A DNA stretch of 26,270 nt from the IMG/VR virus record IMGVR_UViG_3300025276_000192, positions 1 through 26,270 of that record. One strand, written 5' to 3'. Origin of the DNA: a virus. The first letter of the stretch is position 1, and every line of letters begins with the position of its first letter. Shown here one piece after another: positions 869 to 23,028 of this stretch. A model generated the notes under the pieces. The model saw only the letters and a program-made list of their open reading frames with translations. It searched no databases and had not been told where the DNA came from. The position numbers and the translations under genes were made by a program.

Positions 869-971
869 AGTAATTACCTCTTATTATACTTTATTAATCC
901 GACCACGGGGGTCGGATTTTAGAAGAGGAATAACTCTCTTCTCTATAAGGAACTTAAAGAAAGGGCATAAA
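869..971. promoter_or_regulatory. Divergent intergenic control region with two hairpins
   Basis: This is the only divergent intergenic region in the window, between the leftward TerS-like gene and the start of the rightward replication operon. It must hold the start signals of one or both units. It contains a 9-bp perfect hairpin (896-918) and a second hairpin made from AGAAGAG (921-927) and CTCTTCT (936-942). No convincing sigma-70 promoter with both boxes was found on either strand. The operon's first gene has an AAAGGG ribosome site just before its ATG. One of the hairpins may be a promoter for an N4-type polymerase, but this is inference. Confidence 0.5.
896..920 (+). terminator. Strong GC-rich hairpin followed by TTTT
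   Basis: AATCCGACC (896-904) pairs perfectly with GGTCGGATT (910-918) around the loop ACGGG, and the run ends in TTTT (917-920). By form it is a rightward intrinsic terminator that could stop read-through from the left block before the replication operon. Its place just upstream of that operon, where no gene ends on the + strand, is odd and leaves open a role as a hairpin promoter or leader structure. Confidence 0.5.
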
Positions 972-4526: not shown

Positions 4527-5265
4527 TAATGCAGTAATACTGGTAGACTCAGACTCAATCTACTTTAGGATGGCTTGTGTAACAACCAAACAAAAAGAGA
4601 TTCGTGTGGGAATTGATAGCACTATGAGAGAGATCCAACGTAACTGTGGGTCTGATAGTTTTCTCGTAGCAATTAAAGGGAGGGGTAATTTCCGAAAGGA
4701 GATGTACCCTCTCTACAAAGGAACCCGAAGGGAGATAGAACCTAGCGTTAAAGAAGCGTTGAACTATGGACACAAATACATGGTTGAGAAGTACCAAGCT
4801 GTTGAAGCTGACTACATGGAAGCTGATGATCTTGTTGCTATCTGGGCTGCTGAATGCAGAGATGTAAACCAAGAGTATACAGTTGTAGGTATTGACAAAG
4901 ATCTTTTACAGATACCTGGAACACATTACAACTTTGTAAAGAAAGTAATCACAGAGGTTGATGAAGACACTGCTAACTTAAAGCTTATGCTTCAATGCCT
5001 TACTGGTGATAGGTCTGATAACATACCTGGAATTAAAGGGATTGGACCTAAGAAGGCAGAGAAGATACTACATGGAGTTCCTATGCACCGCAGGTGGAAT
5101 AGGGTAAGGGCTGCTTGGAGAACAAATGGATCCGGAGATCCTGATATTTCCAAACGACTATTAACAATGGTAACATCTTGGGAAGAATTAGATGACATTA
5201 AAAAACAAATTGAAGAGCATAAGTCGAAAGAACAAACGTCAGTTCATCGGGATACTGAAGACTGA
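4516..5265 (+). CDS. 5'-3' exonuclease / flap endonuclease (T7 gp6-like)
   Basis: A 249-residue protein of the FEN/5'-nuclease family. It has the acidic residues expected for two-metal catalysis: VDSDSIYFR near the N-terminus, EADYMEADDL in the middle and VGIDKDLLQIPG. The helix-hairpin-helix DNA-binding segment is TGDRSDNIPGIKGIGPKKA. In T7-like phages this enzyme removes RNA primers, degrades host DNA and acts in recombination. It overlaps the polymerase by 11 bases and the HNH gene by 74 bases, so the three are translated as one compact block. The C-terminal 24 residues lie inside the overlap and are charged, likely non-catalytic. Confidence 0.93.
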   Translation: MFTDNAVILVDSDSIYFRMACVTTKQKEIRVGIDSTMREIQRNCGSDSFLVAIKGRGNFRKEMYPLYKGTRREIEPSVKEALNYGHKYMVEKYQAVEADYMEADDLVAIWAAECRDVNQEYTVVGIDKDLLQIPGTHYNFVKKVITEVDEDTANLKLMLQCLTGDRSDNIPGIKGIGPKKAEKILHGVPMHRRWNRVRAAWRTNGSGDPDISKRLLTMVTSWEELDDIKKQIEEHKSKEQTSVHRDTED

Positions 5266-5545
5266 CATTGGTTGTGTTGATTGTGGTTACAATGAACATC
5301 CAGATGCTCTAGGCTTTGATCACCTTCCTAAGTATGAGAAGCTTCACGATGTATCACGAATGGTATCTTGGGATAAAGATATCGGTGACATCCTTAATGA
5401 AGTCTTTAAAACAGAAGTGGTGTGCCATAACTGTCATGCTATTAGAACAGCAGAGAGGCGCAATGGAAAACCTATTCCAGATAAAACCACTGTCAGCAAA
5501 CAGAATGTTTGTAAGGAAAGGCAGGATAACCTACAAGACAGCTGA
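5192..5545 (+). CDS. HNH endonuclease (recombination endonuclease VII-like zinc type)
   Basis: A 117-residue protein. C28-x2-C31 (CVDCG), the D43-H44 pair in GFDHLPK, and C78-x2-C81-H82 (VVCHNCHAIRT) make a zinc-stabilised HNH/beta-beta-alpha-metal nuclease. The basic N-terminus (about 20 residues rich in Lys and Arg) could contact DNA. The gene is overlapped on both sides: 74 bases with the exonuclease and 83 with the resolvase. The nuclease core lies in the non-overlapped part. It could be a homing-type intruder or a structure-specific nuclease working with the resolvase; the sequence alone does not decide. ATG 5192 follows GGAAG. Confidence 0.82.
   Translation: MTLKNKLKSISRKNKRQFIGILKTDIGCVDCGYNEHPDALGFDHLPKYEKLHDVSRMVSWDKDIGDILNEVFKTEVVCHNCHAIRTAERRNGKPIPDKTTVSKQNVCKERQDNLQDS
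5453..5458 (+). promoter_or_regulatory. Ribosome binding site deciding the resolvase start
   Basis: GAGAGG lies four bases before ATG 5463. The spacing is short, but the protein made from here begins with the IKPLSxN segment typical of RusA-like enzymes. No similar site precedes the alternative in-frame ATG codons at 5316 or 5505. Confidence 0.5.
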
Positions 5546-5861
5546 CTATAAGAGGTTTCAAGAGGAGATGGCAGTCATACTTATGGGTGAGACATGGGAG
5601 TTTAAAGACAACCCTGTCCACTTCATTGTGTATGCTGGCCTCTCTAACAAAGCCTCTGACTTAGATAATATAATTAAACCTTTACTTGATACCTATCAAA
5701 ATATATTCGAGGAGTTCAATGATAAAACGGTACAAGGAATTATCCTTCAAAGAGACAGAGTTAAACGAGGAAGAGAATACCTCTGGGTTCGAGTTGCAAA
5801 AGCAGAAGAACTTGAAGTGGGATTCGAAGCATTCGAAGACTCGACAGAAAAAGAATCGTAA
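5463..5861 (+). CDS. RusA-family Holliday junction resolvase
   Basis: From ATG 5463 the protein has 132 residues, close to the 120-residue RusA. It starts with FQIKPLSAN, as family members do. The three catalytic aspartates of E. coli RusA (D70, D72, D91) are matched with identical spacing by D66, D68 (SDLDN) and D87 (FNDK), and the conserved lysine K76 by K72 (IIKPLLD). The enzyme resolves four-way junctions formed during replication and recombination before packaging. The frame is open further upstream to 5316, but that would add a stretch unlike the family lying inside the HNH gene. It ends 30 bases before the primase-helicase. Confidence 0.88.
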   Translation: MENLFQIKPLSANRMFVRKGRITYKTADYKRFQEEMAVILMGETWEFKDNPVHFIVYAGLSNKASDLDNIIKPLLDTYQNIFEEFNDKTVQGIILQRDRVKRGREYLWVRVAKAEELEVGFEAFEDSTEKES

Positions 5862-7519: not shown

Positions 7520-9814
7520 ATGTCAGCAATCCAAGAGATAGTTGATTACCTTGTCAATAGGGTAGATGGTGTCAGTCCTGCACGTCGAAGACCCCATCTT
7601 GCTGGGCTCTTAATGAGATTGTCTGGAAATTATAGTGAACGTATGGAAAGGTATGTTATTAAAAGCATATCGATACTCCAAATGCAATTCACTAAGGACA
7701 CCAGCTCAAGCCCAGCTGGCACAACCACACTCACTAATGCATCTACTAAGGTAGGTCAGAGTATTGGTAAAGAACTAGACCGAGAGCCCCTCCCGTGGGG
7801 CTCTGTGGTGTCCATAGGAGACCTGTTCATAGAAGCCTTATACAACCTAGGATTTGTAGACTTGTCCTATGCTAAGACCCGTGACAGCTGCCACGTGGTG
7901 TCTGCATCACATAGGTGGTACGAGTTAGGTGTGATCCCAGATAAAGGTGGGAGCTTTCCCTTAGCCTCTACAAGTACCATAAGACCAAGGAATATATCTG
8001 GTATGATCCAGAAGATAAATGGTGTGGAAAGACCAGTCATAAAGGGGCGGGTAGAAGGAGATCCAATAGACCCCTATGCACCTTGGGTACAAGCACTTAA
8101 CAAACTACAACAGACTGCTTGGAAGATAAACAAACCAGTCTACAATGCAATGATTGAGAACAAAGAGTTGTTCCTATCTACTGATCCTATCAAAGACAAT
8201 GATGCTAAGGAGCTAAAGCGTAGGAGTAAGATGGTAGAGTGGGCATTCATCTCAGAGAAAGCACGTAAGCTATCAGAGCTAGAGGAGTTCTACCAGTACC
8301 TAGATGTGGACTATCGTGGTAGGTTCTATTACTGTGAAAGCTTTATGAACTTCCAAGGATCAGATCTAGCTAGGGGATTGTTCAAGTTTGAACACGCAAA
8401 GCCAATGACTGCAAGTGGGTTACAGTGGTTAGCTATACACACAGCCTCTGTCTTCAACATGTCTTACAGCATCGATGAGATACCTGAGTGGTGTACTGCT
8501 GACTACAAGACACACCTTGAGGGTGAGGATTTAGATAACATCTCTGTTGACAAGATGACACTAGAAGATCGCATCAGTTGGACCAACGAGTACATGGATG
8601 AGATAGTCGAAGCAGGTAAACACTCACAGTTCTCTGAGGAAGCTGAGAAGAAAGTGTCTTTCCTTGCTGCATGTGTTGAGTGGTATGAATTTGACTGTGC
8701 TTACAAAGACAATCGTATCCACATGACAAGCCTACCAATCCCTATTGATGGTAGTAACAATGGTTGGCAACACCTCGGAGCAATCTCTAAGGATGAGAAA
8801 ACTGGTGAGCTAGTAGGTCTTATCCCCTCAGAGATACAGAAAGACTTCTATGTGAAGACTGCTAAGGAGACTATAGATCTGTGTAAAGATGATCGACTCA
8901 ATAGTATCTTGTCTAGTATGCCAATGAAAAGAATACGCAAGGGGATATCTAAGCGTGGCTCTATGACTAGGGCATACTCAGCAGGCTCTAAGAAGATCGC
9001 TGAGAACATGTTCTTTGATTGTAAGTCAGAGGACTACCATACAGAGTACGGCATCACACAAGATGACTGTACTAAGTTATCTAAACTGCTGATCAAAGCA
9101 ATTGATAAGGTATGTCCAGGACCCCTAGCTACTATGAGTTACCTACAGAACCTAGCGATGTACCAATTAGGTACACATGTGAAGGTAGACTCAGAGGGAT
9201 ACGAAGCTAACACTGAGTACAGAAACCTATCTAAGATCCGTGATACCCTCATGAAAAAGAACTTCAAGACTGATGAGGATCTCTATGAGCTTAACGATGT
9301 TGTAATTAAACTTAAAGAATTTACAACAAGACTTAAGCATGGGAAGGGTAAAGATAGGATTGAATGGAGCACACCTTCAGGTTTCCATGTGATCTATGAG
9401 AAATGGATCATGCAAGATAGGAAAGCCAGAGGACGTATCAAAGGGTATGGTAACAAGACCGGACAGGTTACACACGTAGCCCTTGTGCCTACACGTATGC
9501 CAGACAGAAGAGGTTTCATCTGTGGTATGTCACCCAACTACATACATTCTATGGATGCTAGTCACATGGCTTTAGTTATCTCTGAGTGGGATGGTTCCTT
9601 TGCAGCTGTACACGACAGCTTCAGTACACATGCTGGTGATGTGGATAAACTACTAGACTTAACTAAACAAGTATTCATACGCATGTATAACTACGATAAT
9701 TACTTTGAGGTTATACGTAACTTCATAACAGATGCTGAAGACGATGTGGAACAACCTACATTGGGCAGCTTAGATATAAAGGAGATTGAAAACAGTGACT
9801 ACTTCTTCACGTAA
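7520..9814 (+). CDS. T7-type single-subunit RNA polymerase
   Basis: A 764-residue DNA-dependent RNA polymerase. Motifs, with T7 equivalents: DYRGR at D264-R268 (T7 D421-R425) followed by MNFQGSDLARGLF; motif A PIDGSNNGWQH with D410 (D537); motif B SKRGSMTRAYS with K478 (K631) and Y486 (Y639); MSPNYIHSMDASHMA; motif C VHDSF with D699 (D812). It has only about 263 residues before the DxxGR motif against about 420 in T7, so the N-terminal promoter-binding and RNA-binding region is much reduced. Position 474, equal to T7 Arg627, is lysine. It has ten cysteines. Start ATG 7520 has AGGAG upstream. Being near the operon end, it is made after the replication genes and probably transcribes the late arm. 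Confidence 0.96.
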   Translation: MSAIQEIVDYLVNRVDGVSPARRRPHLAGLLMRLSGNYSERMERYVIKSISILQMQFTKDTSSSPAGTTTLTNASTKVGQSIGKELDREPLPWGSVVSIGDLFIEALYNLGFVDLSYAKTRDSCHVVSASHRWYELGVIPDKGGSFPLASTSTIRPRNISGMIQKINGVERPVIKGRVEGDPIDPYAPWVQALNKLQQTAWKINKPVYNAMIENKELFLSTDPIKDNDAKELKRRSKMVEWAFISEKARKLSELEEFYQYLDVDYRGRFYYCESFMNFQGSDLARGLFKFEHAKPMTASGLQWLAIHTASVFNMSYSIDEIPEWCTADYKTHLEGEDLDNISVDKMTLEDRISWTNEYMDEIVEAGKHSQFSEEAEKKVSFLAACVEWYEFDCAYKDNRIHMTSLPIPIDGSNNGWQHLGAISKDEKTGELVGLIPSEIQKDFYVKTAKETIDLCKDDRLNSILSSMPMKRIRKGISKRGSMTRAYSAGSKKIAENMFFDCKSEDYHTEYGITQDDCTKLSKLLIKAIDKVCPGPLATMSYLQNLAMYQLGTHVKVDSEGYEANTEYRNLSKIRDTLMKKNFKTDEDLYELNDVVIKLKEFTTRLKHGKGKDRIEWSTPSGFHVIYEKWIMQDRKARGRIKGYGNKTGQVTHVALVPTRMPDRRGFICGMSPNYIHSMDASHMALVISEWDGSFAAVHDSFSTHAGDVDKLLDLTKQVFIRMYNYDNYFEVIRNFITDAEDDVEQPTLGSLDIKEIENSDYFFT
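9779..9784 (+). promoter_or_regulatory. Ribosome binding site for the gene at 9795
   Basis: AAGGAG inside the 3' end of the RNA polymerase gene. It is one base from a TTG at 9786, too close to serve it, and ten bases from the in-frame GTG at 9795, a workable spacing. This favours 9795 as the start. Confidence 0.6.
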
Positions 9815-10082: not shown

Positions 10083-10123
10083 AAAGCCCCCAAGAAAACC
10101 TTAATGGTTCTCTTGGGGGCTTT
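10083..10123. terminator. Strong bidirectional terminator at the junction of convergent arms
   Basis: AAAGCCCCCAAGA (10083-10095) pairs perfectly over 13 bases with TCTTGGGGGCTTT (10111-10123), and AACC/GGTT can extend the stem inward. ATTTTTATTT follows on the + strand and an A-rich run precedes it, giving a U-tract in both directions. It ends the replication operon on one side and the structural operon on the other, and insulates the two RNA polymerase genes from antisense transcription. Confidence 0.95.
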
Positions 10124-10131
10124 ATTTTTAT

Positions 10132-13100
10132 TTAGTGTGCATAGTACTGCAATGGAATACGTCTACCGCTTTCGGTTTCGTAACCATTCATTAGTATTTC
10201 CTTTTTCAAATCTTTCTTTGCCTGATTAGTTGAGGAAATAACTTTAGGAAGTCTATTAATTAGGTTCAATTCATTACGAAGAAGACCTTTAAAAGTTTTT
10301 AGTTGTTGAACAGTAGGTTCATTGGGTGGGTTGAATGGATCGTACCCAACTTTTTTCATCTCTAAAACAACCACTTTGGACATACGAATCTTATCGTCCC
10401 GCAGCTGCGCTTCTGTCCTAACTTTATCAGAAATGTTTGTTAGTTTGCTCATACGTCCCCAGAGATTAGCCATGTACAGATTACCACTGGCAGCAGTAGA
10501 TACCTTAAGCATCCAATCCATATAGACCCTCTCATTAACTGTGAGTTTATCGTCAGGATTCCTACCTTTCATCTTCTCTTCAAAACGTTTAGTTGCCTTA
10601 GTCAGAGAGTTACGTGCTTGTTCTAAGTAACTCCATTCAAGAGTTGCATCCATCCAGTTAAGATTAATCTCTTCTAGTGCAACGTCATAACCATTAGCAT
10701 CTACTTTAAAAGCATCATAGATAGTTAAAAGATATGCATTACCATTAGATGCCCTGTTCATCCTATCCCAAGACTTTCCAGAGGCAGTCATTGCTACGGT
10801 AGCAGCATCGACAGCTTGAATAGGTGCAACAACAGATCCACCATAGGCAAACTCACCGGGGGTACCTTCAATAGAACCATCTGAGTTTGTCCTATTGCGA
10901 ACAGCTGATGCTGTAGTCTCAGTTTCATAGTGAGCAACGTTTGTTTTAGCCCTTTCAACTTGAACACCTTCTACAAATACAGGTGAGAATGCGCCTTGAA
11001 CATTCTTTGGGCCAACAATACTCTTAAAGGTGCTCATAGAAGCTTCATCATAACCTGTAGAGGATTCACCACCAATATTGATGGCCATACCTGTTGGACC
11101 ATAGATAATAAAAGGTTCATTCATAGCAGCATGTAGTGCAGCCGCAGCCCTCATAATAGATCTAGCTTCTCTGGAAGCAGGTGTCATAATCCCTTCAAGT
11201 GATACACTATATTTCTCTAAGAGAACTTTAGCTAAGTCTCTACGTGACATAGTAGAATCTACAATAGAAAGACTTGGAGCATAAGAACTTTCAGGGTCTT
11301 CAAGAAGTTTCTGATTCATAACCTCTAAGACTTCTTCAATGTCAGTTACGAAACTTTCAATCTCCTTACCATAACCATAAGTCATGATTGTTAACTTAGC
11401 TAAATCTCTATTGTTAAACACAGCACGTGCAACATCATTCAGTTGTGGAAATAAATCCTCACTGATGTTTGACCATCCACTATCTATACTCTCATTGGCT
11501 AATCCCATAAGTCTATCACGGATATCACCATCATCTAAGAGTGTTGTTCTGTTCCCCCTAGCCCTGAGGACACCAGTGTAGTAAGCCATATTGATCTCAC
11601 CCATTTGCATACCCTGACTTGCAGGACCATTGGTCTTACCATCCATATAAGCATTGACATAACTAATAAATTGTTTATCCTTGGGGTAGTTCCTTTTAAA
11701 GTCAACGTACTTAGCGAAGTCTATCAATGTGTCCATCAGAAGTGGGCCATCTTCTTTCTTATCTTTAATCATCTTGATAATCATACTATCATAATCACTA
11801 TTTGGATCAAGGCTAAGCTGATTAAACTGTGGGAATTGTGGAGAATCTAAGGGAACCCCATTAGCAATGGCCTCAGACACAGCTTCATACTGTGCATCAG
11901 TCATTTCTAATGCTTGTTGAAGACGTTTACCATACCCATACAGTTCAGACTCTCTGGCCTTAAGCATAACTTCTCTTTGACGAGGTAAGAAAGTATCACC
12001 AGCATCTGTTATTGTATTACCTGCAGAGTCTTTAACTTTAGACAATAAGATCATGGCATACATCTGACGTAGGTTCTTCTCTTGCCTGTTTCCAGGTCTA
12101 ATAATAGCCCCTACAGGTGCTCTTGTAGCAAATCGAACAGCCTTAGATGTCACTGGGTTAAAGAAAGATTGCTGAGGTGTCAGCCTCCCCTGAAAACCTT
12201 GAACATTATAAGTAAGGTAGTTAATACCATTACGATCTTGGGCTAATGCTTGAACTTCCTGTGCTAATTTATCCATCAAATTGTTGATGTTCTCTTGTGG
12301 AATATAAAGTTCTTCATTTAGTTGTGGATTATTGTCCATCCTACGTTCCTGCATCTTAGCAGCAGCATTAAATTTGTTCATTCTTGATTGACCAACATTG
12401 TTGATCTCAGCCTGCCAAGTAGTGTGGTCATTGGACAAGAGTGTAGCTAACGCAGTAGAATATAAGATTTTCATACGTTGCTTATCAACCACATGACCTA
12501 CCTGACCTAAGTTATTAATAGCTTCTTCAATAATCTTACCCATCTTCTGACCAGAATTACCACCAGACACTGCCCTAACTACATTCTTACCAACATCAGT
12601 ATCAACCATTTGGTTAGGTGTTTTCTGAGGTCTCACTATTTGACGAGGAAAAAGTTTCTTACGATCAAGCTCACCTTCTTTAATAGCTGCCTCACCTTCT
12701 GCAGAAAGTGTATATACTTTTTGCCGAGTATTTGGATCAGTAGAGGTTGTGACCAGTGTTGGGTTAGAGTCTGCCCATAACTGTTTGAACGCAGCGCCAA
12801 GTGTCTCAGCCTCCTTACGGTTCAGTTTATCTGGTGAAGCTAATGCTTGAACCATAGGATCAGTCTCAGGCACACCCTGACTTATCATAGCCTGCCTATT
12901 CCTACGCTGATACTCAAGATGTATCCTGTTACCTATCTGCCCGTTACCTTCAGCAAGTGTAAGCGTTTGGTTTACACCTTCCTTAGGTACAGATGTGTCT
13001 CCCATTGCCTCTGAAACAGGGTCAACAGTGCTTTCCATATTACCACCAAAAACATCCTCAACAATAGCAGAAGCAATTTGAGTATACATTAGATTAGGTA

Positions 13101-13680
13101 TCTTCATACCACTCTCAGATTCTATAATTGCATCTGCCCTACTGATAGCAGCTACGATATTACCATCAGCGGTCTCAGCGATAGCGTCTGCAAGTGCTGG
13201 ACCTGATACAGGAGATTTACCTTGGGTTAGTGGGTAAGCTGCATTCCCAAGGGCTGTTAAGTTTAACCCAAGGTTACCATGATTTACATTCTTAAAAAGA
13301 GTCTTTGCACGAGATCTAATATTACCACCAGCTTCAGATTGTGCTGCAACAGATAACTCTTGTTTCCTAACAGGGGGTGTGACCCGTCTATACCTTTGGT
13401 TACCAGTCTGAGCATTGGTAGCCATGTCAGGAACTAAGAATCTGTCATCATTACTTTGTTGTTCTGGGTTAATTAAATCAGGCGCTAACCCAGATGCAGC
13501 CTGTGTGATCTCTGCAATTTGTTCTGGAGTAGTGTTAGCAATATCTTGTAGGATGCCTGATGAGGCAGGTGAAGATGCAGGTTGTTGAGGGACTACCTCT
13601 TCCTCCTGCCTAACAAATCGATCTTCTAAAGATTGAGAGGGGAGCTCAGCACTCCCCCCTTTAATTATTGGTATCGCCAT
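10132..13680 (-). CDS. Diverged single-subunit RNA polymerase, probable virion-packaged (N4 vRNAP-like)
   Basis: An 1182-residue protein. In order it shows F496-Q-G-R499 followed by SFFNP (counterpart of T7 DxxGR...FNP); motif A MDGKTNGPAS with D680; motif B NRDLAKLTIMTYGYG with R758, K762, Y770 and G771, an exact match to the T7 Rx3Kx7YG spacing; APIQAVDAA (D958), like the APNFVHS element; and motif C TIYDAF with D989. Spacings are R499-D680 181, D680-K762 82 and K762-D989 227. About 495 residues precede the core, starting with a low-complexity Pro/Gln/Ser region. Its length is similar to the N4 vRNAP central domain. It has no cysteine. It is the last gene of the structural operon, beside ejection proteins, and starts two bases after its neighbour behind AAGGAGA. 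It was probably injected with DNA; activity and packaging are inferred. Confidence 0.82.
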   Translation of the reverse strand: MAIPIIKGGSAELPSQSLEDRFVRQEEEVVPQQPASSPASSGILQDIANTTPEQIAEITQAASGLAPDLINPEQQSNDDRFLVPDMATNAQTGNQRYRRVTPPVRKQELSVAAQSEAGGNIRSRAKTLFKNVNHGNLGLNLTALGNAAYPLTQGKSPVSGPALADAIAETADGNIVAAISRADAIIESESGMKIPNLMYTQIASAIVEDVFGGNMESTVDPVSEAMGDTSVPKEGVNQTLTLAEGNGQIGNRIHLEYQRRNRQAMISQGVPETDPMVQALASPDKLNRKEAETLGAAFKQLWADSNPTLVTTSTDPNTRQKVYTLSAEGEAAIKEGELDRKKLFPRQIVRPQKTPNQMVDTDVGKNVVRAVSGGNSGQKMGKIIEEAINNLGQVGHVVDKQRMKILYSTALATLLSNDHTTWQAEINNVGQSRMNKFNAAAKMQERRMDNNPQLNEELYIPQENINNLMDKLAQEVQALAQDRNGINYLTYNVQGFQGRLTPQQSFFNPVTSKAVRFATRAPVGAIIRPGNRQEKNLRQMYAMILLSKVKDSAGNTITDAGDTFLPRQREVMLKARESELYGYGKRLQQALEMTDAQYEAVSEAIANGVPLDSPQFPQFNQLSLDPNSDYDSMIIKMIKDKKEDGPLLMDTLIDFAKYVDFKRNYPKDKQFISYVNAYMDGKTNGPASQGMQMGEINMAYYTGVLRARGNRTTLLDDGDIRDRLMGLANESIDSGWSNISEDLFPQLNDVARAVFNNRDLAKLTIMTYGYGKEIESFVTDIEEVLEVMNQKLLEDPESSYAPSLSIVDSTMSRRDLAKVLLEKYSVSLEGIMTPASREARSIMRAAAALHAAMNEPFIIYGPTGMAINIGGESSTGYDEASMSTFKSIVGPKNVQGAFSPVFVEGVQVERAKTNVAHYETETTASAVRNRTNSDGSIEGTPGEFAYGGSVVAPIQAVDAATVAMTASGKSWDRMNRASNGNAYLLTIYDAFKVDANGYDVALEEINLNWMDATLEWSYLEQARNSLTKATKRFEEKMKGRNPDDKLTVNERVYMDWMLKVSTAASGNLYMANLWGRMSKLTNISDKVRTEAQLRDDKIRMSKVVVLEMKKVGYDPFNPPNEPTVQQLKTFKGLLRNELNLINRLPKVISSTNQAKKDLKKEILMNGYETESGRRIPLQYYAH

Positions 13681-13682
13681 TA

Positions 13683-16600
13683 CTAATTCTCCTTGTTGTC
13701 CTTATAGTTCCAACCACCACCAGTCATTAGACTAGCTAGTCTTTTATTAGTATCTGTAAAAGGTCCAATTCCAGGGGCTGATTTTAAACCCTGATATAAA
13801 GAACGTTCAAAGTCACCCTTAGCTGCATTCAAAGTTGCATCACCGAGCCTACCAACGTACCCAACAGTTGGGCTTTCACCTGTGGCTTGATTGTATAACC
13901 AACCACCAAGACCCTCAGAGCGTTGACCATAGATAGGTGCAAAGATATCAACAATCCTTTCACCTGTGCCAAGCAAACCAGAAGACATGACACCACGGCG
14001 AATGTACTCAGGTGTGTCCAAGTATGGATTACCAAGTGTACCTTCGTCATCATCATCGTCATCAAACTTTATCTCATCTTTCATAGCCTGTGAGAAGAAC
14101 CCTAAGGCAATCATAGTAGACATGAGAACAAAGGTGTTGTACTTCATTGCTGGAGTGCCACGTTTGATATAGTCATTCCACATACGAGGTATATGGTTTG
14201 CTGTAAAGGTAGAAATGAAACCTTGGAACTGTGTAAACAAAGCGAACCTTGGATCTTGATAGAGCAAAGGACGATTAGCTGCACTTGGAAGGGCTACTGC
14301 TTGGTTAATAAAGTTGTAGGTAGCTTCCTTCATTGTTTGATTCCATGCATCCATCTCTTTAGCACTTAAAGGTAATCCTTTTTCAATAGCATTCATCATA
14401 GGAATGAATTGTTCTATAGGTATTCCCAAGCTTCTTAGCTTTTGCTCAGCCTCTTGAGCCTCACGAGTAGGGCCTTGAGATACAATCTCCCCATCCTTAG
14501 TGACATACTCTGTTACAGTAGTTTTCTTCTTAGTCTTTTTATCAACAGTAGTAGTTGTTCTTGCCTCGTTCCTTTGATATAATATTTTAGAGTTAATAGA
14601 TATAAAATCATAGGCCATACTTGCACGAACAGCACGAGTATAGTCAGTCCATTGAGTCAAACCAATAGCCCTAAAGAAAGCTTCCATAACATTCTTACGA
14701 TTGTCTGAAACCTCACTGACACCTGTGGTTGTTGCAGCGCCTACTTCCCAAGCATAGAAACCAGTTTCTCTAAGAAGCTTTTGACCTTCACTACCATTGT
14801 TCTGTTGAAGTATACCTTCATCAGTGCTGGATTCAACCTTCTTTAGATTAGGCAATAACCCCGCCACTGCTTCTTGAGCAATGTTTCTAATGCTTCCATT
14901 CTTACCAAAGATTTGTTCCTTAGTGAGCGCCCCTTGTGTCATAGCCATTTCAGGCAGTGAGGAAAATGTTGCAAGTGGAAGTGCGGATAGTGTCATCCAG
15001 AACATTACATTCTTCTGGAACCTCATAAGCTTTTTACCAGCTTGGGTAGTCGGCCTGTTGTAGTTACCTGACACAGCCTCTAAGATATTCTTAACCTCAG
15101 AAGCTACACGATTAACCTCTTCCTCAGGCACACCCTCGGCCTGCATCTTGTTCAAGAGTTTAGATATAATCTCTCCATCCTTACCAACATACTTCATTTG
15201 AGTTACGTAACGAGCCGCAGTCTTACTTGCATTAGCAACGTTAGCGAAGATGTCTTTCTCATAGAACTGATCAAACTTTTCATTCTGAGATAGACCAAAC
15301 TTCCTACGCTTGTGTGATGGTGGGTTGAGAGATCCTACATTACTGATAATAGCATCCGCAGAGTCCAGATCGTAGACGTTTGGGTTGTCTCTGATCTCAT
15401 CTGTAATCCTTAAAGCTAGGTCAGGAGTGATTCCATACTCAGATATTAAAAGATTTTTAAACTTCTCTGGATCCTTAGACACAGCAGCCTTATCAATTGA
15501 CTTGTACTTAAGGAGGTAACCTTTAATATCTCCCAAATCAGCACCAGCATCTAATTGGTTTTGACGGAGTTCCTTACCAAGAGTCATCAATTGATTACCC
15601 AAGTCAATAATTACCTGCCTGTTCTCAGTGTCCTTTGGTACAAGATTCTGATTAAAGTTACCTCGTTTATCGATAGCTCCCCTCAACACTTTGTAAGTCA
15701 TGTCACTTACCCTAGCTCTATCAGAAGACTTAAACACTCCTGCAATAGATCGAAGACCCAATCTCTTATAGTAAGCTTTTGGGTCATGCACTTGGTTCTT
15801 GTAGTAAGTTACAAGATGGTGTTGTGCAGCTTCGATACCAGAACCACCATGTAAAGGAGTCAGTGTCCCACCTAAGATAGATGCCAATGCACGAGCAGAC
15901 CTAGACTTATCTAGTGTAGCTTTTGGAATTGCATTTGTAACAGCAGCTTGCCAAAGATTAGAAACATTCATTACAGATGTAGATGCACGTTCCATAAATG
16001 TTTTCTGACCAGTTGTTTGCTTGTGCTTATCTCCTCTTTGATTAACGTTGGGACCGAGGTTGTCAGAGGCATCCACTTCTTTCTGAACATCTGACAGTAG
16101 TTGGGGTGTAGTTCTTACAGTCCCACCGTGATTTGCCTTCTCTTCTTCTATGTATCTTTCATTGTCTGATTGAGATATTGGTTCTCCAAAACGAGCAGCT
16201 GCATCCATCCAAGTTATCTGATCTTTAACTGTACCGGGAATAGAAAAGGCACCACCTAAGGCAGTGCCAGCAATAGCAGCATTAGCTAAACGTTCTTTAA
16301 ACTCTTCGTAGTCAAACACTTTATCTGAACCTTGAACAGCAGCAAGATAGCCAATAGCTTCTTGACCAACTTCAGTCAGTCCCTCAGATACAGAACCAAC
16401 ACCTACAGTTCCTAAAGCTCTCATAGAAGCCTGCTTAGCTGTTATCTGAGCCTTTGCAATCCTCTGTGCTTCATTGGCAAACTGACCAATGGCAGAGTCT
16501 GCTTCTGCTTTAACAAGTATCTTAGCATCTAGTAAACTTATTCCACGAGATTTAGCAAGCGCCTTTGGTATCTCCTCTCGTATAGTTTGTATTGGGTTTT

Positions 16601-17771
16601 TTCCTATACCTCCAATACCTTTAAGACCTAACCTATCAAGGACAGCTTGAGCTATGCCAGAACCAATTGCAATGGTAGCTGACTTACTATCGTTATCACC
16701 TTCCATGTCATTCCAAGTTTGACCTGCATACATGAATGATGGGATAGCTACAGCACCTGAGACAGCAAGAGCAGTACCTATAACAGGGGCAAGTACAGTT
16801 CCAGCAAGAGCCGAACCAGCAGTGATTGCCATATAAGGAAGAGACAAAGCCATTGTGTTCCCAAGGTACTCAATGAAACCTCCAATGTTATCAATATCTT
16901 TGTAGTTGTTAGTCGTATATCCAAACTCAGCCAGCTTACCTTGCTGCCTACGTACACCAGCTTCACCCCATCTTTCAAGACCCTCAGCTCCAGTAGAAGA
17001 ACCAAACAGATTAGCAATACCATACGCACTCTCACCTACACTGATCCACCCTTGTTCCCAAGAGTCGCTGATAGGGTTGAGAGATTTGTTGTCAAGTGAG
17101 ACACCAGGTCTTCGGATATCTACATCACGATAAAAATACTTATTCATTTCGCTTGTAGCTTGATCCCTAGACATTCCTTGGGTCATGAAGTAACTGATGT
17201 AAGAAGCTCTTTCTTTTTCATCTACAAGGGTTTGTTTAAAGCCTAAAGACTTGGCACCTTGAGATCTCTCAGCAATCTCAATATCAACTGCAGCTTTATC
17301 AAATGCAGAAGGTTCGTATGTACCCTCGAAAATAGCCCTGTCCCTAGCAGCTGTTGTGGCTGTCTTTTGAATCCTATCAGAGTCTGTTGAGAACTCTGTT
17401 AGATCCATTGCACCTGAACTCATTAACATGCCTGAGAAAGTTTCCCCAACATCATTGACAAGATCAACCATCTGACGAGTACCACCAGAATCCATCATAG
17501 GGGAACCGTCTGAATTGAACACAGGTTTTATGTTATTAAACCCCTGTTCATTAGCTAGTCGGGAGATAATGCCAGTGGTTTCTTTACCACCAGCAGTACC
17601 TTCCTTAACTTCCCCAGTGTATAAGATCTTAGACACCTCGGCAGCATCATAACCACGAAGACGATAGTTGGGACCATCTGGGTTATCCAATGTGTCACCA
17701 TCGATGAAGTGAGTACCAGTACCTGCTAAAGTATTAGGCTTAAAGTTACTAATATCATCTAATATTCCCAT
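13683..17771 (-). CDS. Large internal virion (ejection) protein with N-terminal SNase-like domain
   Basis: A 1362-residue protein. Residues about 20-160 look like a staphylococcal nuclease-type domain: D24-G-D26-T, then R37-L-R-G-Y-D42-A-A-E45, matching SNase D19-G-D21-T, R35, D40 and E43. A VGETFSGMLMSSGAM segment follows, then an AARDRAIFEG helix, as in the SNase C-terminal half. Residues about 297-349 are hydrophobic and Gly/Ala-rich, apt to insert in membranes. Another hydrophobic stretch is near 922-942, and one near 1210-1229 precedes six aspartates (1237-1242). The C-terminal third (RPLLYQDPRFALFTQF, GLLGTGERIVD) looks like large internal proteins of marine podoviruses. No cysteine. 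AAGGAG precedes the ATG. It likely forms part of the DNA-ejection conduit. Confidence 0.75.
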   Translation of the reverse strand: MGILDDISNFKPNTLAGTGTHFIDGDTLDNPDGPNYRLRGYDAAEVSKILYTGEVKEGTAGGKETTGIISRLANEQGFNNIKPVFNSDGSPMMDSGGTRQMVDLVNDVGETFSGMLMSSGAMDLTEFSTDSDRIQKTATTAARDRAIFEGTYEPSAFDKAAVDIEIAERSQGAKSLGFKQTLVDEKERASYISYFMTQGMSRDQATSEMNKYFYRDVDIRRPGVSLDNKSLNPISDSWEQGWISVGESAYGIANLFGSSTGAEGLERWGEAGVRRQQGKLAEFGYTTNNYKDIDNIGGFIEYLGNTMALSLPYMAITAGSALAGTVLAPVIGTALAVSGAVAIPSFMYAGQTWNDMEGDNDSKSATIAIGSGIAQAVLDRLGLKGIGGIGKNPIQTIREEIPKALAKSRGISLLDAKILVKAEADSAIGQFANEAQRIAKAQITAKQASMRALGTVGVGSVSEGLTEVGQEAIGYLAAVQGSDKVFDYEEFKERLANAAIAGTALGGAFSIPGTVKDQITWMDAAARFGEPISQSDNERYIEEEKANHGGTVRTTPQLLSDVQKEVDASDNLGPNVNQRGDKHKQTTGQKTFMERASTSVMNVSNLWQAAVTNAIPKATLDKSRSARALASILGGTLTPLHGGSGIEAAQHHLVTYYKNQVHDPKAYYKRLGLRSIAGVFKSSDRARVSDMTYKVLRGAIDKRGNFNQNLVPKDTENRQVIIDLGNQLMTLGKELRQNQLDAGADLGDIKGYLLKYKSIDKAAVSKDPEKFKNLLISEYGITPDLALRITDEIRDNPNVYDLDSADAIISNVGSLNPPSHKRRKFGLSQNEKFDQFYEKDIFANVANASKTAARYVTQMKYVGKDGEIISKLLNKMQAEGVPEEEVNRVASEVKNILEAVSGNYNRPTTQAGKKLMRFQKNVMFWMTLSALPLATFSSLPEMAMTQGALTKEQIFGKNGSIRNIAQEAVAGLLPNLKKVESSTDEGILQQNNGSEGQKLLRETGFYAWEVGAATTTGVSEVSDNRKNVMEAFFRAIGLTQWTDYTRAVRASMAYDFISINSKILYQRNEARTTTTVDKKTKKKTTVTEYVTKDGEIVSQGPTREAQEAEQKLRSLGIPIEQFIPMMNAIEKGLPLSAKEMDAWNQTMKEATYNFINQAVALPSAANRPLLYQDPRFALFTQFQGFISTFTANHIPRMWNDYIKRGTPAMKYNTFVLMSTMIALGFFSQAMKDEIKFDDDDDDEGTLGNPYLDTPEYIRRGVMSSGLLGTGERIVDIFAPIYGQRSEGLGGWLYNQATGESPTVGYVGRLGDATLNAAKGDFERSLYQGLKSAPGIGPFTDTNKRLASLMTGGGWNYKDNKEN

Positions 17772-17792: not shown

Positions 17793-20700
17793 TTATGCTA
17801 TTAGTCCATTCACCATACTATCCATGACATACTGCATTAACCCACTTACACCAATAGCAGCACCTGTGTCAATGTGGACTTGCCTTAATTCAGGGTCTAG
17901 ATCTCGCCAATCGTTGTAAGTATCTGTAGTCATTAGCCAAGATGAAACCTGAGTATCATTCATGCCAGCTAATTCTTCTTTACCTTCACGAGCTGCCGCA
18001 TCCTTAAGAGTCTTTATGAAAGTTGTAATATTTGCTATAGGAACTGGTTTATCAAAAGTAGCCTCACCCTTACTATTCTTTGAAGGTAAGAAGAAGTTTT
18101 GTGCATCAGTAGTATTAGATTCTACCCAAGCTCTTGAGAAATAGTTACTTAATCCAGAGATTTTCTTACCAGACTTAGTATCAATCAATGCTTCATTGTA
18201 AGCCTTTTCTACAAGCTCTTCCATCTGCTCTAGTTCCATACCATTCTCAATAGCAAACACAACAGCTTCCCTTCCAATTTTTGCTTTTGGAATGCCCAGA
18301 TATGATTGACCAGTCACAATAGCACCAGCACTGTCTCTCTTTGGATTATTAGTATCTAGTTGTCCTACAAACGTTGATATCTTATCTCTTATTGATTTCT
18401 TGTATGTCTGATTGGCTTGTGTATTAGGGGCAAACCTACCATCGTTGGTAAGTGTACTTAGATTAACCTGCTTATTGCCATCAAACCAATAATTACCATC
18501 ACCTACTTTTTTTTGAATTAAAGTAATTTCCCTACCTGTTCGCCTATCATACATGGTCATTGGCTGAGCACTAGTGGGAACGGCAGGGAGACCTTTAGTT
18601 ACAAGATCACCAAAGTCCATTGATTTCTTAAATATTGCAAGACTTTCCTTAGTATGTGTATCTGCAATAGCAACCTTATTATAGGTACTTTCCTTAGCAT
18701 CTACCCTAGCAATGTAGTTCTTACCTGCAAAGGCAAGAGCTTGATTACCACTAAGACCAGTAGCACGACCACCAAGGTACATAACAGCAGCCCTAGCAAG
18801 TTCTTTACTGTCAAACAGATTCCCAAAGACACCTTTGAGCATAGCCATAGCACCTGTTACTTGAGGGGTTTTCTTGGCTAAGGCCTCTTTTGCTAATCGA
18901 TCAGCCTCATCTTTAGCAGCCTTTATTTGTACTGGAGTTAATTCAGTCTCATTTACCCCTAAGTCTTTAACAATGTCTCTAGCATTATCTATAGGTTTTA
19001 CAACAGTAGTAGTGTCTACAGTTGTATTATCAGCAGGGTTGACATAAGGTACGATATTATCACGTTCCTGTTCTATCCTAATAACATCAGAGTTCTTCCT
19101 AGTTAGTTGCATCTCAGCTCTTTTTTCAGCCTCTTGCGCCTTTGCAAGTTCCAACTTATTAGCTTCAGCTTGAGCTTTAGCATCTGCCAGTTGTTGAATT
19201 GCCTGCTGACTTCCAGGGTTTAATCTTATGTACTCTTCAAGATTTGTAATGACGTTTAGAGTAGTTTCCAAAGTATCTCTCGCAGAGTAAACCTGCTTTT
19301 CTACTATATCAAGAGGGCCTCGTTCAAGAGTATCTCGCATAATACGGTCCATGTAGAGATTGTCTCCACCTGTACTCATATCACTCTGGTCAGTCGCAGC
19401 TTCAATTTCGTTTAACCGGATTTGATTAATTGCTTGATCATCCCCGTCAGTAGCAAGACGTTCTAATTCAGTTCTAGTCATACTCTTATAGTTCTTATTC
19501 ACTACAGGGGGTATGTCATTATCCAAATTAGGAATATTTTCTCTAGTTTCTTGGTACAGAGTGCCGTATGGAGGGATATTGTAACCAGTCAACTCCTCTA
19601 AGCTTGTCATTGATGGTGTGAATGCCCCTGAAATAAGATTAGATACCTTGCTGTGTTCAGGTGATCCAACCTCTAGCCTTTTACGAAGATCTATTAATCT
19701 TTTCTGTGCTTCAGACCTACGATATTTATCTGGGTCATTACCAATGAAGTCATTACCAATGACATTACCACCCATAGGTATATTATTACCCATCATCCTA
19801 GGAACATCTTGAATAGATGCTGGAAGGTTGTAACTCATCAACTCATCTAGGCTTATCATCGATGGGCTTAATGCCTTTGTAATAATATCAGATATCTTGA
19901 TGTGTTCAGGTGATCCAACAGGTAAACTTTCACGCAGATCCATTAACCTTTGTTGTTCTACAGTCCTACGAGAAATAGCATCACCAGTCTGACCATACCC
20001 TGAAGCACCTAAAGTACCAAATCCTGTCTCCCTAGGATCACTAATCACTTGTCTATCCTGACCATTAGTGAAGATATTACCTTGACCAAATGTCTCATTA
20101 CCTAAGCCTGAGCCCGGTCTTGGTACACTGTAATTCAATTGCTTGAATGGAAATTCCTTCCTAGCCTCTTCAACACTATCAGAAGATCCTTCAAGTAATG
20201 ATTGATCACTGTTAGGGATTGGGAGGTATGAGAGGTCTGGTGGAGGTGTGTTCATCAATTCAGGTCCAGCCACTGGAGGAGAGTTGGGGATTGGGAGATA
20301 TGAGAGGTCTAATGGAGGTGCAACAACTGGCTCCGGAGGGGCTTGCCTCTGAGGCATCTTATCAATTAGAAGTTGCGATTGATCAAACTTAGTAAGAGCA
20401 TCACGCTCATTCCTTTTAAACCAAGCGTTATCAACATCATTTTGAAGATTACGCCGAGCCATTTGATCTAGAGATAACCCGCCTGTATTTAAGTGGATAG
20501 GGCCACCCATATTTTTCTCGTCAGTATAACCAGCAGTATAACCACTACTAGGAAAGTTAGAGATACCTCCCGCTCCCATGTCTGAAAGCCTTGGACTATC
20601 TTGTACCCCTCTAGGAGTAGGTACACCAATAAACCTTGGATCAGGAACACTTACCTGATTTGCAATCATTACATTCGGATCAAGTCCAGCATACATGTCT

Positions 20701-21713
20701 TGAGATGGCATCATCTGATTAGCACGAGTTGCATTAGCAAGTTCCTGTTCTATCCTAATAACATCAGAGTTTTGAGGTTGAGGAGGTGCTGCCTGCATCT
20801 GTGGTATTAAATTAGGTGCCATACCAATCTGGCCATACCCTGAAGAGCCCTCAAGTTCCCTAAGATCATAATTCTGCTGTGGTTCAGGAGAGGTTGGACG
20901 TAACTCTGGACGTAGTAATGTGTCAGAAGTTGTCATAGTATCTGGGCGTGACTGTGGACGTAGTGATGTGTCAGGGGCCATTGGACGTGACTGTGGACGT
21001 AGTGATATTTCAGGTGCTGCAAGAGGTGAAGTGACAGGAGCAACTTGAGTTTGGTCTTGAGCTAAGAAAACCTTAACCATATCATCAGAACGATCATGAG
21101 TTTGACCAGCCCAGTCGCTATCATTAGCCTCAAAGGCAGCCTTAGCGTAGTCACCTGCTTCAACAGCTTCGATCATCTTTTCAAATTTAAATTGACCAGC
21201 TCCACCAAGTTGAAATGCCATATTAGTCAACCCATTTTGAACAGATTCTGGTAATTGATCCCAATTAGAAAAGTTCTTTTTTGCAGCATCCCTAGCAGTA
21301 CTTACATCATCTAGGAGCATCTGATCTAACTCAGCTATACTATATGGTTTGTACTGTGTACTTTTGTTTTTACCATCCCACGCATATTTTTTAAAACTAG
21401 CTGGAAGTTTGTGACCAGTACCTATAGTGGCATGTCCTTCGGTATCTATATACACATAGTCTCTAAAGCCTTCACGCTTTTCAAGATTCTTTAGCCAAGG
21501 CGCTTTATCAGGTACCCCACCAGAACTTCCATCATTGTAATGTTGAATACCACCACCCATGTTTTTCATTGCACGATGCTGTAAACCTGCGCTATTCATC
21601 TGCTCTATCACAGGAGCAAACATAGTTGATGCTTCCTTATTGAGGACAAATTCTCCGGGTGTTAGCATCGCAGGTACAGTATCCCGATTAGTCGGATCTG
21701 TTTTATCAATCAT
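17793..21713 (-). CDS. Virion-associated lysozyme and repeat-rich internal protein
   Basis: A 1306-residue protein from ATG 21713. Near the N-terminus is DTVPAMLTPGEFV, a motif recurrent in phage structural proteins. Residues about 70-220 are a T4-type lysozyme (GH24): E81, D90 and T96 in KREGFRDYVYIDTEG...ATIGTGH have the same spacing as T4 E11, D20 and T26. Next comes a long disordered region with repeats: LRPxxRP three times, LSYLPIPNS twice, NSDVIRIEQE twice, and a duplicated block of about 50 residues. A helical, coiled-coil-like stretch (about 804-884) and a globular C-terminus follow. No cysteine. It probably digests peptidoglycan during DNA entry; no separate endolysin is in the window. 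An AGGAG with six-base spacing supports this start over one at 21785. Confidence 0.83.
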   Translation of the reverse strand: MIDKTDPTNRDTVPAMLTPGEFVLNKEASTMFAPVIEQMNSAGLQHRAMKNMGGGIQHYNDGSSGGVPDKAPWLKNLEKREGFRDYVYIDTEGHATIGTGHKLPASFKKYAWDGKNKSTQYKPYSIAELDQMLLDDVSTARDAAKKNFSNWDQLPESVQNGLTNMAFQLGGAGQFKFEKMIEAVEAGDYAKAAFEANDSDWAGQTHDRSDDMVKVFLAQDQTQVAPVTSPLAAPEISLRPQSRPMAPDTSLRPQSRPDTMTTSDTLLRPELRPTSPEPQQNYDLRELEGSSGYGQIGMAPNLIPQMQAAPPQPQNSDVIRIEQELANATRANQMMPSQDMYAGLDPNVMIANQVSVPDPRFIGVPTPRGVQDSPRLSDMGAGGISNFPSSGYTAGYTDEKNMGGPIHLNTGGLSLDQMARRNLQNDVDNAWFKRNERDALTKFDQSQLLIDKMPQRQAPPEPVVAPPLDLSYLPIPNSPPVAGPELMNTPPPDLSYLPIPNSDQSLLEGSSDSVEEARKEFPFKQLNYSVPRPGSGLGNETFGQGNIFTNGQDRQVISDPRETGFGTLGASGYGQTGDAISRRTVEQQRLMDLRESLPVGSPEHIKISDIITKALSPSMISLDELMSYNLPASIQDVPRMMGNNIPMGGNVIGNDFIGNDPDKYRRSEAQKRLIDLRKRLEVGSPEHSKVSNLISGAFTPSMTSLEELTGYNIPPYGTLYQETRENIPNLDNDIPPVVNKNYKSMTRTELERLATDGDDQAINQIRLNEIEAATDQSDMSTGGDNLYMDRIMRDTLERGPLDIVEKQVYSARDTLETTLNVITNLEEYIRLNPGSQQAIQQLADAKAQAEANKLELAKAQEAEKRAEMQLTRKNSDVIRIEQERDNIVPYVNPADNTTVDTTTVVKPIDNARDIVKDLGVNETELTPVQIKAAKDEADRLAKEALAKKTPQVTGAMAMLKGVFGNLFDSKELARAAVMYLGGRATGLSGNQALAFAGKNYIARVDAKESTYNKVAIADTHTKESLAIFKKSMDFGDLVTKGLPAVPTSAQPMTMYDRRTGREITLIQKKVGDGNYWFDGNKQVNLSTLTNDGRFAPNTQANQTYKKSIRDKISTFVGQLDTNNPKRDSAGAIVTGQSYLGIPKAKIGREAVVFAIENGMELEQMEELVEKAYNEALIDTKSGKKISGLSNYFSRAWVESNTTDAQNFFLPSKNSKGEATFDKPVPIANITTFIKTLKDAAAREGKEELAGMNDTQVSSWLMTTDTYNDWRDLDPELRQVHIDTGAAIGVSGLMQYVMDSMVNGLIA
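19064..19094. repeat. 31-bp perfect direct repeat, copy 1
   Basis: The 31 bases from GTTCCTG to CAGAGTT are identical to 20741-20771. Both copies lie in the lysozyme-bearing virion gene and encode NSDVIRIEQE in the leftward frame. The flanks differ, so this is a short, recently copied or strongly conserved unit. Confidence 0.85.
19569..19970 (-). repeat. Diverged tandem duplication of about 50 codons
   Basis: Two blocks, about 19569-19721 and 19816-19970, encode similar segments: both contain LRxxLxVGSPEH, then a helix, then PSMxSLxEL and YNxP. They are separated by a linker of short repeats (NVIGNDFIGND). Both keep the frame, so the duplication is at protein-domain level and of some age. 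Confidence 0.75.
20215..20320 (-). repeat. 34-bp imperfect direct repeat encoding a SYLPIPN segment
   Basis: Bases 20215-20248 and 20287-20320 differ at about three positions. In the leftward frame each encodes PPxDLSYLPIPN, 24 codons apart, in the proline-rich region of the lysozyme-bearing protein. Confidence 0.8.
20741..20771. repeat. 31-bp perfect direct repeat, copy 2
   Basis: Identical to 19064-19094, 1677 bases away in the same gene and same reading frame. Confidence 0.85.
20896..21013 (-). repeat. Three near-identical 31-bp units encoding LRPxxRP
   Basis: Units at 20896-20926, 20944-20974 and 20983-21013 share the core TGTGGACGTAGTGAT with few changes. Each encodes an LRPQSRP or LRPELRP peptide directly after the lysozyme domain, forming a proline/arginine-rich linker. 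Confidence 0.8.
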
Positions 21714-21719
21714 ATCATT

Positions 21720-21724
21720 CTCCT
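21720..21724 (-). promoter_or_regulatory. Ribosome binding site for the lysozyme-bearing protein
   Basis: AGGAG on the leftward strand, six bases before ATG 21713 and inside the 19-base gap after the upstream gene's stop. The frame is open 24 codons further to an ATG at 21785, but that lies inside the upstream gene and has no ribosome site. Confidence 0.75.
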
Positions 21725-21732
21725 GATAGTGG

Positions 21733-23028
21733 TTACTTCTTTTGTTTTGGATAAGGGACTTTACCCCCTTTGTTAAATACTCCAAAGAGCTTTCCTAATC
21801 CAAGACCAATGCCTACAGGTCCAAGAGCTGCCATCATAGCAGAGCCTCCTGCAGCTGCGGTAGCAGCAGTACCAGTTGCAGCACTACCTCCCAGCATACT
21901 TCCTAGAGAACCCATGATACCCTCTTTAGCTGCGAGAGCACCAAGACCATTAGTGATCCCATTATTAACAGCTCCCATAGCAACCTTTTCACCAATACCA
22001 CTTAAAGGTCCAGCTTCTTGTTGAGGGGCAATCTGAGCTTGCATCATTTGACGTTGACGTATCTCGTCTTCACGAAGACCAGTGTTAGCTACTGAAATAC
22101 CACCTGTGTTGTAACCTATAGGGCCTCCCATGTTACGTGCGCCCCAGAAGCGATTAGTTTCGCCTGTTTTGGTATTAACGTATCCTGTACCTGCACCCGT
22201 ATAGGCTGGTGTATTTGAATGGAATGAATTATTCGCTCCATCATCAGAAACAGGGGTTGGATCGTAGGTGCTTATAGGTGCTGTTGCTAGGTTAGATGCT
22301 ACAGTTGCTCCAGGAATTAATTTAAGAATGGGGGCTTTATTAACGGCATTTTTTATCCCACTAGTAATACCTCCATAGATATCCTTAACACCTCCAAAGA
22401 ATCCAGTAGTAGGATCATTTGCATTGTAACCACCACTTACATTTTTAAAACCTGCTGAAGCCATAGATGCTGCAGCATATTCTTCTGGTGTCATAGTCTT
22501 CTTATCTTCAGCGGTAGGTGCAGGATTAGCTGCAGCCATCTCCGCATTGTAACCTGGATTTTCTGTTACATCAATCTTAGAAATAGTCCCATCTGGATTA
22601 ACCTTACCATACACGGATTCTAAACCAAACGTTGCAAAAGCATTATTTACATTTTCATGTGCTACATCCTTATGACCACCATAAGTAGTATAGTTACCCC
22701 CACCAGAACTACCAGCCAAAGGGGCTATGTTAGCTGTGTTCATTTCGTCTGCCTTTTTAAGACTAGCTTCTTGAACTTCAGGGGATAAACCAGAGGCTGC
22801 TAATGCTTGCCGTAATTTACGGCGAGAGTCTGCAAGTGTGTGGTAATCAGGGACACCGGATGCATTACTACCAGCTCCATAACTCAATGGACCAGAAGTG
22901 TTACCGCTTGAATTACCACTCAAGTAGTTCTGAATAGCTGGTGCTGCATAACCCCCCTGAGGTATCCCAGTGTTGACTGCAGGTTGAACTACACCACCTT
23001 CTTGATACTTTTGAATTATATGTTTCAT
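21733..23028 (-). CDS. Gly/Ala/Asn-rich internal virion protein
   Basis: A 431-residue protein without cysteine. Most of it is low-complexity and rich in Gly, Ala, Asn and Thr. An ARNMGGPIGYNTGG segment near residue 300 repeats one found in the next protein. The C-terminal region (about 350-418) is strongly hydrophobic with glycine-zipper spacing (for example GPVGIGLGLGKLFG), suited to membrane insertion. The last residues, NKGGKVPYPKQKK, are basic. Its ATG overlaps the stop of the preceding gene as TAATG. Position and composition suggest a T7 gp14/gp15-like ejection protein, but no homologue is recognised with certainty. Confidence 0.6.
   Translation of the reverse strand: MKHIIQKYQEGGVVQPAVNTGIPQGGYAAPAIQNYLSGNSSGNTSGPLSYGAGSNASGVPDYHTLADSRRKLRQALAASGLSPEVQEASLKKADEMNTANIAPLAGSSGGGNYTTYGGHKDVAHENVNNAFATFGLESVYGKVNPDGTISKIDVTENPGYNAEMAAANPAPTAEDKKTMTPEEYAAASMASAGFKNVSGGYNANDPTTGFFGGVKDIYGGITSGIKNAVNKAPILKLIPGATVASNLATAPISTYDPTPVSDDGANNSFHSNTPAYTGAGTGYVNTKTGETNRFWGARNMGGPIGYNTGGISVANTGLREDEIRQRQMMQAQIAPQQEAGPLSGIGEKVAMGAVNNGITNGLGALAAKEGIMGSLGSMLGGSAATGTAATAAAGGSAMMAALGPVGIGLGLGKLFGVFNKGGKVPYPKQKK

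Follow-up and report, generated by a model that had tools for sequence, protein, structure and literature searches.

The phage behind IMG/VR record IMGVR_UViG_3300025276_000192 almost certainly encodes, to judge from sequence comparison, an ordinary T7-type RNA polymerase together with a second, very diverged single-subunit polymerase of the N4 kind, one third the size of the N4 protein. Positions below refer to the whole stretch analysed (26,270 nucleotides, positions 1 to 26,270 of the record; hereafter the window). The second enzyme, P0001, had been singled out in a preliminary description as a highly diverged polymerase in the virion gene cluster, and this claim is now supported by four lines of evidence: conservation of its catalytic residues, a profile-profile alignment with shuffled controls, a fold predicted without N4 or T7 sequences, and weak, repeated matches to independent polymerase profiles. 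The same description held that the phage also carries a T7-type polymerase, and the 764-residue single-chain enzyme listed here agrees with that. The features concerned are as follows.

10132..13680, minus strand: candidate compact N4-type virion RNA polymerase P0001, 1182 aa (open reading frame, homologues, motif conservation, hhalign, AF2 and Foldseek)
12184..12186, minus strand: R499 codon, X2GR element; N4 counterpart R424, T7 counterpart R425 (conservation and hhalign)
11641..11643, minus strand: D680 codon, motif A DGKTNGP; N4 D559 in DGVTNGP, T7 D537 (66/66 homologues and F-x8-DGxTNGP scan)
11395..11409, minus strand: R758 to K762, start of motif B; K762 corresponds to N4 K670 and T7 K631 (K762 in 66/66)
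11371..11373, minus strand: Y770 codon, motif B; N4 Y678, T7 Y639 (66/66)
10714..10716, minus strand: D989 codon, motif C IYDAF; N4 D951, T7 D812 (66/66)
7520..9814, plus strand: single-chain T7-type RNA polymerase, 764 aa, convergent with P0001 (Pfam RNA_pol, E 1.8e-54; phrog_414, E 4e-99)
10083..10123, no strand assigned: 18-bp inverted repeat between the two converging polymerase genes, likely a bidirectional terminator
13683..17771, minus strand: virion structural protein, 1362 aa, directly upstream in the same operon (phrog_6958, E 1.8e-19); adjoins the polymerase gene in relatives too
17793..21785, minus strand: internal virion protein with a phage lysozyme domain, 1330 aa (Pfam Phage_lysozyme, E 3.6e-9; phrog_2083, internal virion lysozyme motif)

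Conservation of catalytic residues

The P0001 open reading frame runs on the minus strand from an ATG at 13680 to 10132 and comprises 1182 codons with no internal stops. The residues named in the preliminary description lie where it had placed them, namely R499 (QGFQGR...FNP), D680 (DGKTNGP), R758-x3-K762-x7-Y770-G771 and D989 (IYDAF), and the K-to-Y spacing of motif B does equal that of T7 RNA polymerase, with the M766-T767 pair kept (T7: R627-x3-K631-x7-Y639, M635-T636). In the register given by hhalign, the GR-element Arg, the catalytic Asp of motifs A and C, and the Lys and Tyr of motif B are ordered as in the T7-like superfamily.

Homologues were gathered from IMG/VR searches in steps, from 5 loci to 13 and then 63, plus one contig from a Bacteroidetes metagenome-assembled genome (MAG). 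Identity within the family falls to about 23-30% (about 28% in the best segment), and an alignment of 44 sequences has just 20 invariant columns, with D680, K762, Y770 and D989 among them. These four residues are invariant in 66/66 homologues, and R499 is kept in all 63 members of the 66-sequence set that cover its position. Given this constancy in a diverged family, the motif match is more than chance. The final P of DGxTNGP varies in distant members, and the N varies in six. The motif B arginine, R758, is present in P0001 as described but is not strictly conserved, the 66 homologues having 56 R, 9 K and 1 S at this position. The 53 members counted as full length span 1116-1342 aa, compared with about 3500 aa for N4-type enzymes. 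The phages that carry the compact polymerase almost certainly form a lineage, mostly marine, whose members were not previously recognised to have it. One member (L209, DNHN01000098.1) is found on a 10-kb contig binned in the Bacteroidetes MAG UBA10340, which is either a hint at the host or a binning artefact.

Profile relationships to N4 and T7 polymerases

Single-sequence searches with P0001 found no Pfam family and, by phmmer, no PDB sequence, and a tblastn search of 50,697 phage genomes with P0001 and two distant members returned no relative. A profile search of PDB sequences with the family gave just unrelated low-scoring matches, and the NCBIfam search gave nothing relevant. The PHROGs search of P0001 produced one weak match, to the RNA polymerase family phrog_414 (E 0.0012, residues 655-866). 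The same family matches 25 of the 44 aligned members (best E 3e-7), phrog_2206, the N4 virion RNA polymerase (vRNAP), matches two, and weak Pfam matches are likewise seen in just two. When 2.9 million viral contigs were scanned for F-x8-DGxTNGP, the matches listed comprised giant N4-type open reading frames, the present family and a few short spurious reading frames.

Comparison of the 66-sequence family profile with 55 N4-type vRNAP cores by hhalign gave a probability of 98.4% (E 4.4e-15, 564 columns), with the family's GR...NP..K..R placed over VGR...NPQSAKLVR of N4. A 20-sequence family profile gave 97.0% (E 1.2e-10) and a score of 101.7 against the same cores, for which the controls reached at most 25.3 in 40 column-shuffled profiles and 23.0 with a reversed profile. 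In the same set-up the N4 vRNAP cores align with T7-type enzymes at 97.8% (E 1.1e-12). At the level of sequence profiles, the family is therefore joined to the N4-type vRNAPs at least as well as those are joined to T7 polymerase. The family sits closer to the N4 vRNAPs than to the T7 enzyme, because its alignment with the T7-type enzymes reaches only 10.6% (E 0.003) as against 98.4% (E 4e-15), with the qualification that the T7 profile held fewer sequences.

Predicted fold

An AF2 model of P0001 built from 44 family members, with no N4 or T7 sequences in the input, has a pLDDT of 81.6 and a pTM of 0.81; an earlier model from six near-redundant sequences (pLDDT 35.5) was discarded. In the model D680 lies at the end of a beta strand (676-681), K762 within a helix (758-769) with Y770 directly after it, and D989 in the turn between two strands (984-987 and 990-994). 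This placement on strand, helix and turn is the known arrangement of motifs A, B and C. All of the best 50 PDB matches found by Foldseek are single-subunit RNA polymerases (mitochondrial, T7 and N4), and among these 50 the query-normalised TM-score is greatest, at 0.44, for 3c3l, the N4 mini-vRNAP with promoter P2. The TM-scores are moderate, at 0.33-0.44 by query length. Comparison with viral models is in agreement. P0001 is thus predicted to have a right-hand polymerase fold, with the caveat that AF2 has met such folds in training. The absence of this fold had been named in the preliminary description as the finding that would count against a polymerase; the model contains it, and the claim is not refuted.

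Genome organisation

The P0001 gene is the last of a leftward virion operon, where it begins two bases after the 1362-aa gene and stands behind two genes for internal virion proteins. In relatives of 57-58 kb, the early genes, the replication genes and the T7-type polymerase gene are read in one direction and the virion genes in the opposite one. A T7-type polymerase gene adjoins the family gene in 20/20 contigs tested. The vRNAP gene of N4 is similarly the last in a leftward virion cluster that converges on the early and replication genes, as P0001 does.

The portal gene of one relative (G001, 51279-53438) belongs to phrog_1216 (E 2e-84), a family shared with N4 gp59. The major capsid protein and large terminase of the relative fall in phrog_1328 and phrog_2, as against phrog_1357 and phrog_38 in N4. 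In a published survey of N4-like phages, no two gene trees agreed better than those of portal and vRNAP (PMC10654107). The N4-family portal in G001, present beside a capsid and a terminase of other families, raises the possibility that an N4-like portal and vRNAP travel together.

Candidate promoters

The vRNAP promoters of N4 are hairpins of 5-7 bp with a 3-nt loop, in which the template-strand loop has G first and A last, and a C:G pair closes it (PMC4496689). In the left 12 kb of N4 this loop rule picks out exactly three sites, all in early sense, in agreement with the number and position published for P1-P3. Chance matches to the rule by itself (CTNCG plus 5 bp) are not rare, and its raw counts across loci were not clearly above chance; only repeated, strand-consistent sets were used. 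The window starts too far to the right to include the hairpin sites, and all of those described here are in relatives.

On the early-sense strand of their early regions, the relatives contain 2-4 small DNA hairpins whose stems covary. The main class, CC-ACAGG-GG, has a 5-nt loop, unlike N4. All 13 sites of CCACAGGGG, from five contigs, are on the early-sense strand, and they lie in the early region wherever whole contigs were read. This motif is part of a 9-bp inverted repeat in which 15 compensatory cells are spread over 5 pairs. Pairing holds in 94% of the cells, compared with no more than 63% after sliding, and sliding lowers the covariation score from 0.41 to 0.09 or less. Four hairpins each are found in G008 and G020, all in early sense, and three of those in G020 obey the N4 loop rule. 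Two hairpins with an N4 loop are present in each of G007 and G009 (ATCCC-TTC-GGGAT, ATTCC-TTC-GGAAT and GTCCC-TTC-GGGAC), with compensatory changes in the stems, so that the rule is obeyed in three lineages (G007, G009 and G020). One hairpin usually lies 40-80 bp ahead of a gene for a gp2.5-like single-stranded DNA-binding protein (SSB), with a sequence that differs between lineages; dinucleotide shuffles of the stretch before this gene were strongly exceeded in just about half of the lineages. The hairpins may be promoters of the compact polymerase; they could instead be RNA elements or terminators.

Some other repeats were set aside. An apparent N4-like repeat in G007 (GTAACCCAGGGGGTTCC) was discarded because its site was taken to be within the T7-type polymerase gene, and a 75-nt leader repeat was left out of the promoter candidates as it pairs better as RNA than as template-strand DNA. 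In two genomes of different lineages (L210 50-127 and 497-574; L212 16896-16980) this leader of about 75 nt, in which the hairpin CAGCAATCGTAATGGTTGCTG is followed by AACACTTAACCTATATCTTGAAAGGATATACC-ATG, stands in near-identical form ahead of the first early genes; it is also present in G005 (41411-41799).

A different motif, TCTAAGTTCCTTATAG, is found on either strand at the heads of late and middle genes in relatives (G001 7504, 35636, 54138 and 55945; G003 5037, 42353 and 44169) and is probably, from these positions, the promoter of the T7-type enzyme. The window holds one match with one mismatch, which is not above chance within the window alone:

943..958, plus strand: CTATAAGGAACTTAAA, one mismatch to TCTAAGTTCCTTATAG (or its reverse complement); may be a promoter of the T7-type polymerase

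Proposed role and alternative explanations

We put at roughly 0.84 the probability that P0001 is a working N4-type virion polymerase which is packed, injected and starts the first genes from the early hairpins, the T7-type enzyme then taking over. The protein would be a single-subunit RNA polymerase cut down to roughly the length of the N4 catalytic domain. Expressed late as part of the virion operon, it would enter the particle alongside the neighbouring internal virion proteins and be injected together with the DNA. Transcription of the first genes, which would include that for the T7 gp2.5-like SSB and, further along, that for the T7-type polymerase, would begin from the small DNA hairpins of the early region, and middle and late genes would subsequently be served by the T7-type polymerase. 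That the protein is packaged, injected and active, that the hairpins are its promoters and that the two enzymes divide the work in this way is all inferred.

The negative single-sequence searches of PDB, phage genomes and Pfam are what a chance resemblance of motifs in an unrelated internal virion protein would give, yet such a coincidence is scarcely credible, as it is already contradicted by the profile alignment with its shuffled controls, the predicted fold, the PHROGs matches in 25/44 members and the residue conservation. A polymerase-derived ejection protein that has lost catalysis and aids DNA ejection alone would suit a gene lying among those for internal virion proteins. This is very unlikely, because a dead enzyme is not expected to keep invariant catalytic residues, and here they persist in 66 diverged homologues and among just 20 invariant columns in 44 sequences.

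It is less improbable, while still unlikely, that P0001 is an active polymerase which stays unpackaged and is made late in the cell for late transcription or for priming replication. The gene is indeed in a late operon, and the case for packaging rests on gene position. Against this, the homology to N4 is accompanied by an identical gene position, the hairpins cluster at early and not late genes, and it is the different motif TCTAAGTTCCTTATAG that is repeated at late gene heads. A packaged, injected enzyme that starts the early genes is the reading we prefer.

Comparison with known systems

The protein most similar in kind is gp50 of N4, the Schitoviridae vRNAP (phrog_2206; mini-vRNAP residues 998-2103), which shares with the family F-x8-DGxTNGP, GR...NP..K..R, RxxxK-x7-YG and motif C, as well as the predicted fold, the terminal place in the virion operon, a further single-subunit polymerase encoded by the same genome, and hairpins in the early region. 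In contrast to gp50, with its length of about 3500 aa, the family (1116-1342 aa) lacks most of the N- and C-terminal domains; identity is about 15% in the profile alignment, and the motif B M-T pair of the family is as in T7. The second polymerase of N4 is the gp15/gp16 heterodimer, whereas the partner in the family phages is one chain (764 aa in the window). These 57-58 kb phages have the portal family of N4 but other capsid and terminase families, and their promoter-loop classes differ in part from those of N4, the family hairpins being candidates.

T7 RNA polymerase belongs to the same superfamily and shares the catalytic residues, the exact K-to-Y spacing and the M-T pair, but its profile link to the family is much weaker (10.6%, E 0.003) and it is not a virion protein. 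The window phage has its T7-type enzyme in addition to P0001. A likeness in strategy is offered by Thermus phage P23-45, whose first genes are reported to be transcribed by a polymerase carried in the particle, with a second, non-virion enzyme following (PMC10770324). That virion polymerase is of a different enzyme family, being a homologue of cellular RNA polymerases fused to a tape measure protein (PMC10770324).

Our literature search found no description of a compact N4-type vRNAP outside the Schitoviridae. The survey of N4-like phages ran iterated vRNAP profiles against IMG/VR, but a genome entered its high-quality set only with the full seven hallmark genes of the Schitoviridae (PMC10654107), so genomes with a compact polymerase may have been seen and then set aside. 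Three N4 hallmarks including a vRNAP are reported for the Poorviridae (PMC11654794).

N4-type virion polymerases have so far been tied to the Schitoviridae and to a giant protein of 3500 aa, with flanking domains that have presumed roles in packaging, ejection and regulation. The existence of a family one third of this size in other phages asks which parts of the N4 vRNAP are needed, suggests how such phages could begin transcription without the host polymerase, and offers compact enzymes whose promoter specificities may be new. The odds are slightly better than even that a mostly marine lineage outside the Schitoviridae runs its whole infection on a minimal virion polymerase, which is packaged and injected without the extra N4 domains and reads several classes of hairpin promoter, plus a one-chain T7-type enzyme. 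If this is true, the large flanking domains of N4 would be a later addition or a dispensable elaboration, and the lineage would supply polymerases matched to their hairpins in a series made by nature.

A more divergent case occurs in the Roseobacter podovirus CRP-7 (MK613349, 58 kb), whose T7-type polymerase is 35% identical to that of the window; the available excerpts of the CRP-7 paper name just this T7-type enzyme (PMC6918029). Beside it, in the same place as P0001, lies gp33 (L017 17859-21566), a hypothetical protein of 1235 aa. In a profile comparison with the family, YGK of motif B and HDA of motif C align, scoring 39.3 where 60 shuffles reached no more than 28.2. The protein is very diverged, having a profile probability of just 14% and EADARQSN as motif A. 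On this alignment gp33 is a probable further, still more diverged member of the virion RNA polymerase family, and hypothetical proteins of this kind become testable as polymerases in a cultured marine phage.

Elsewhere in the window, two open reading frames (5192-5545 and 5316-5861) overlap in different frames, one having HNH-like cysteine pairs and the other looking, by eye, like a RusA-type nuclease; both are also present in relatives.
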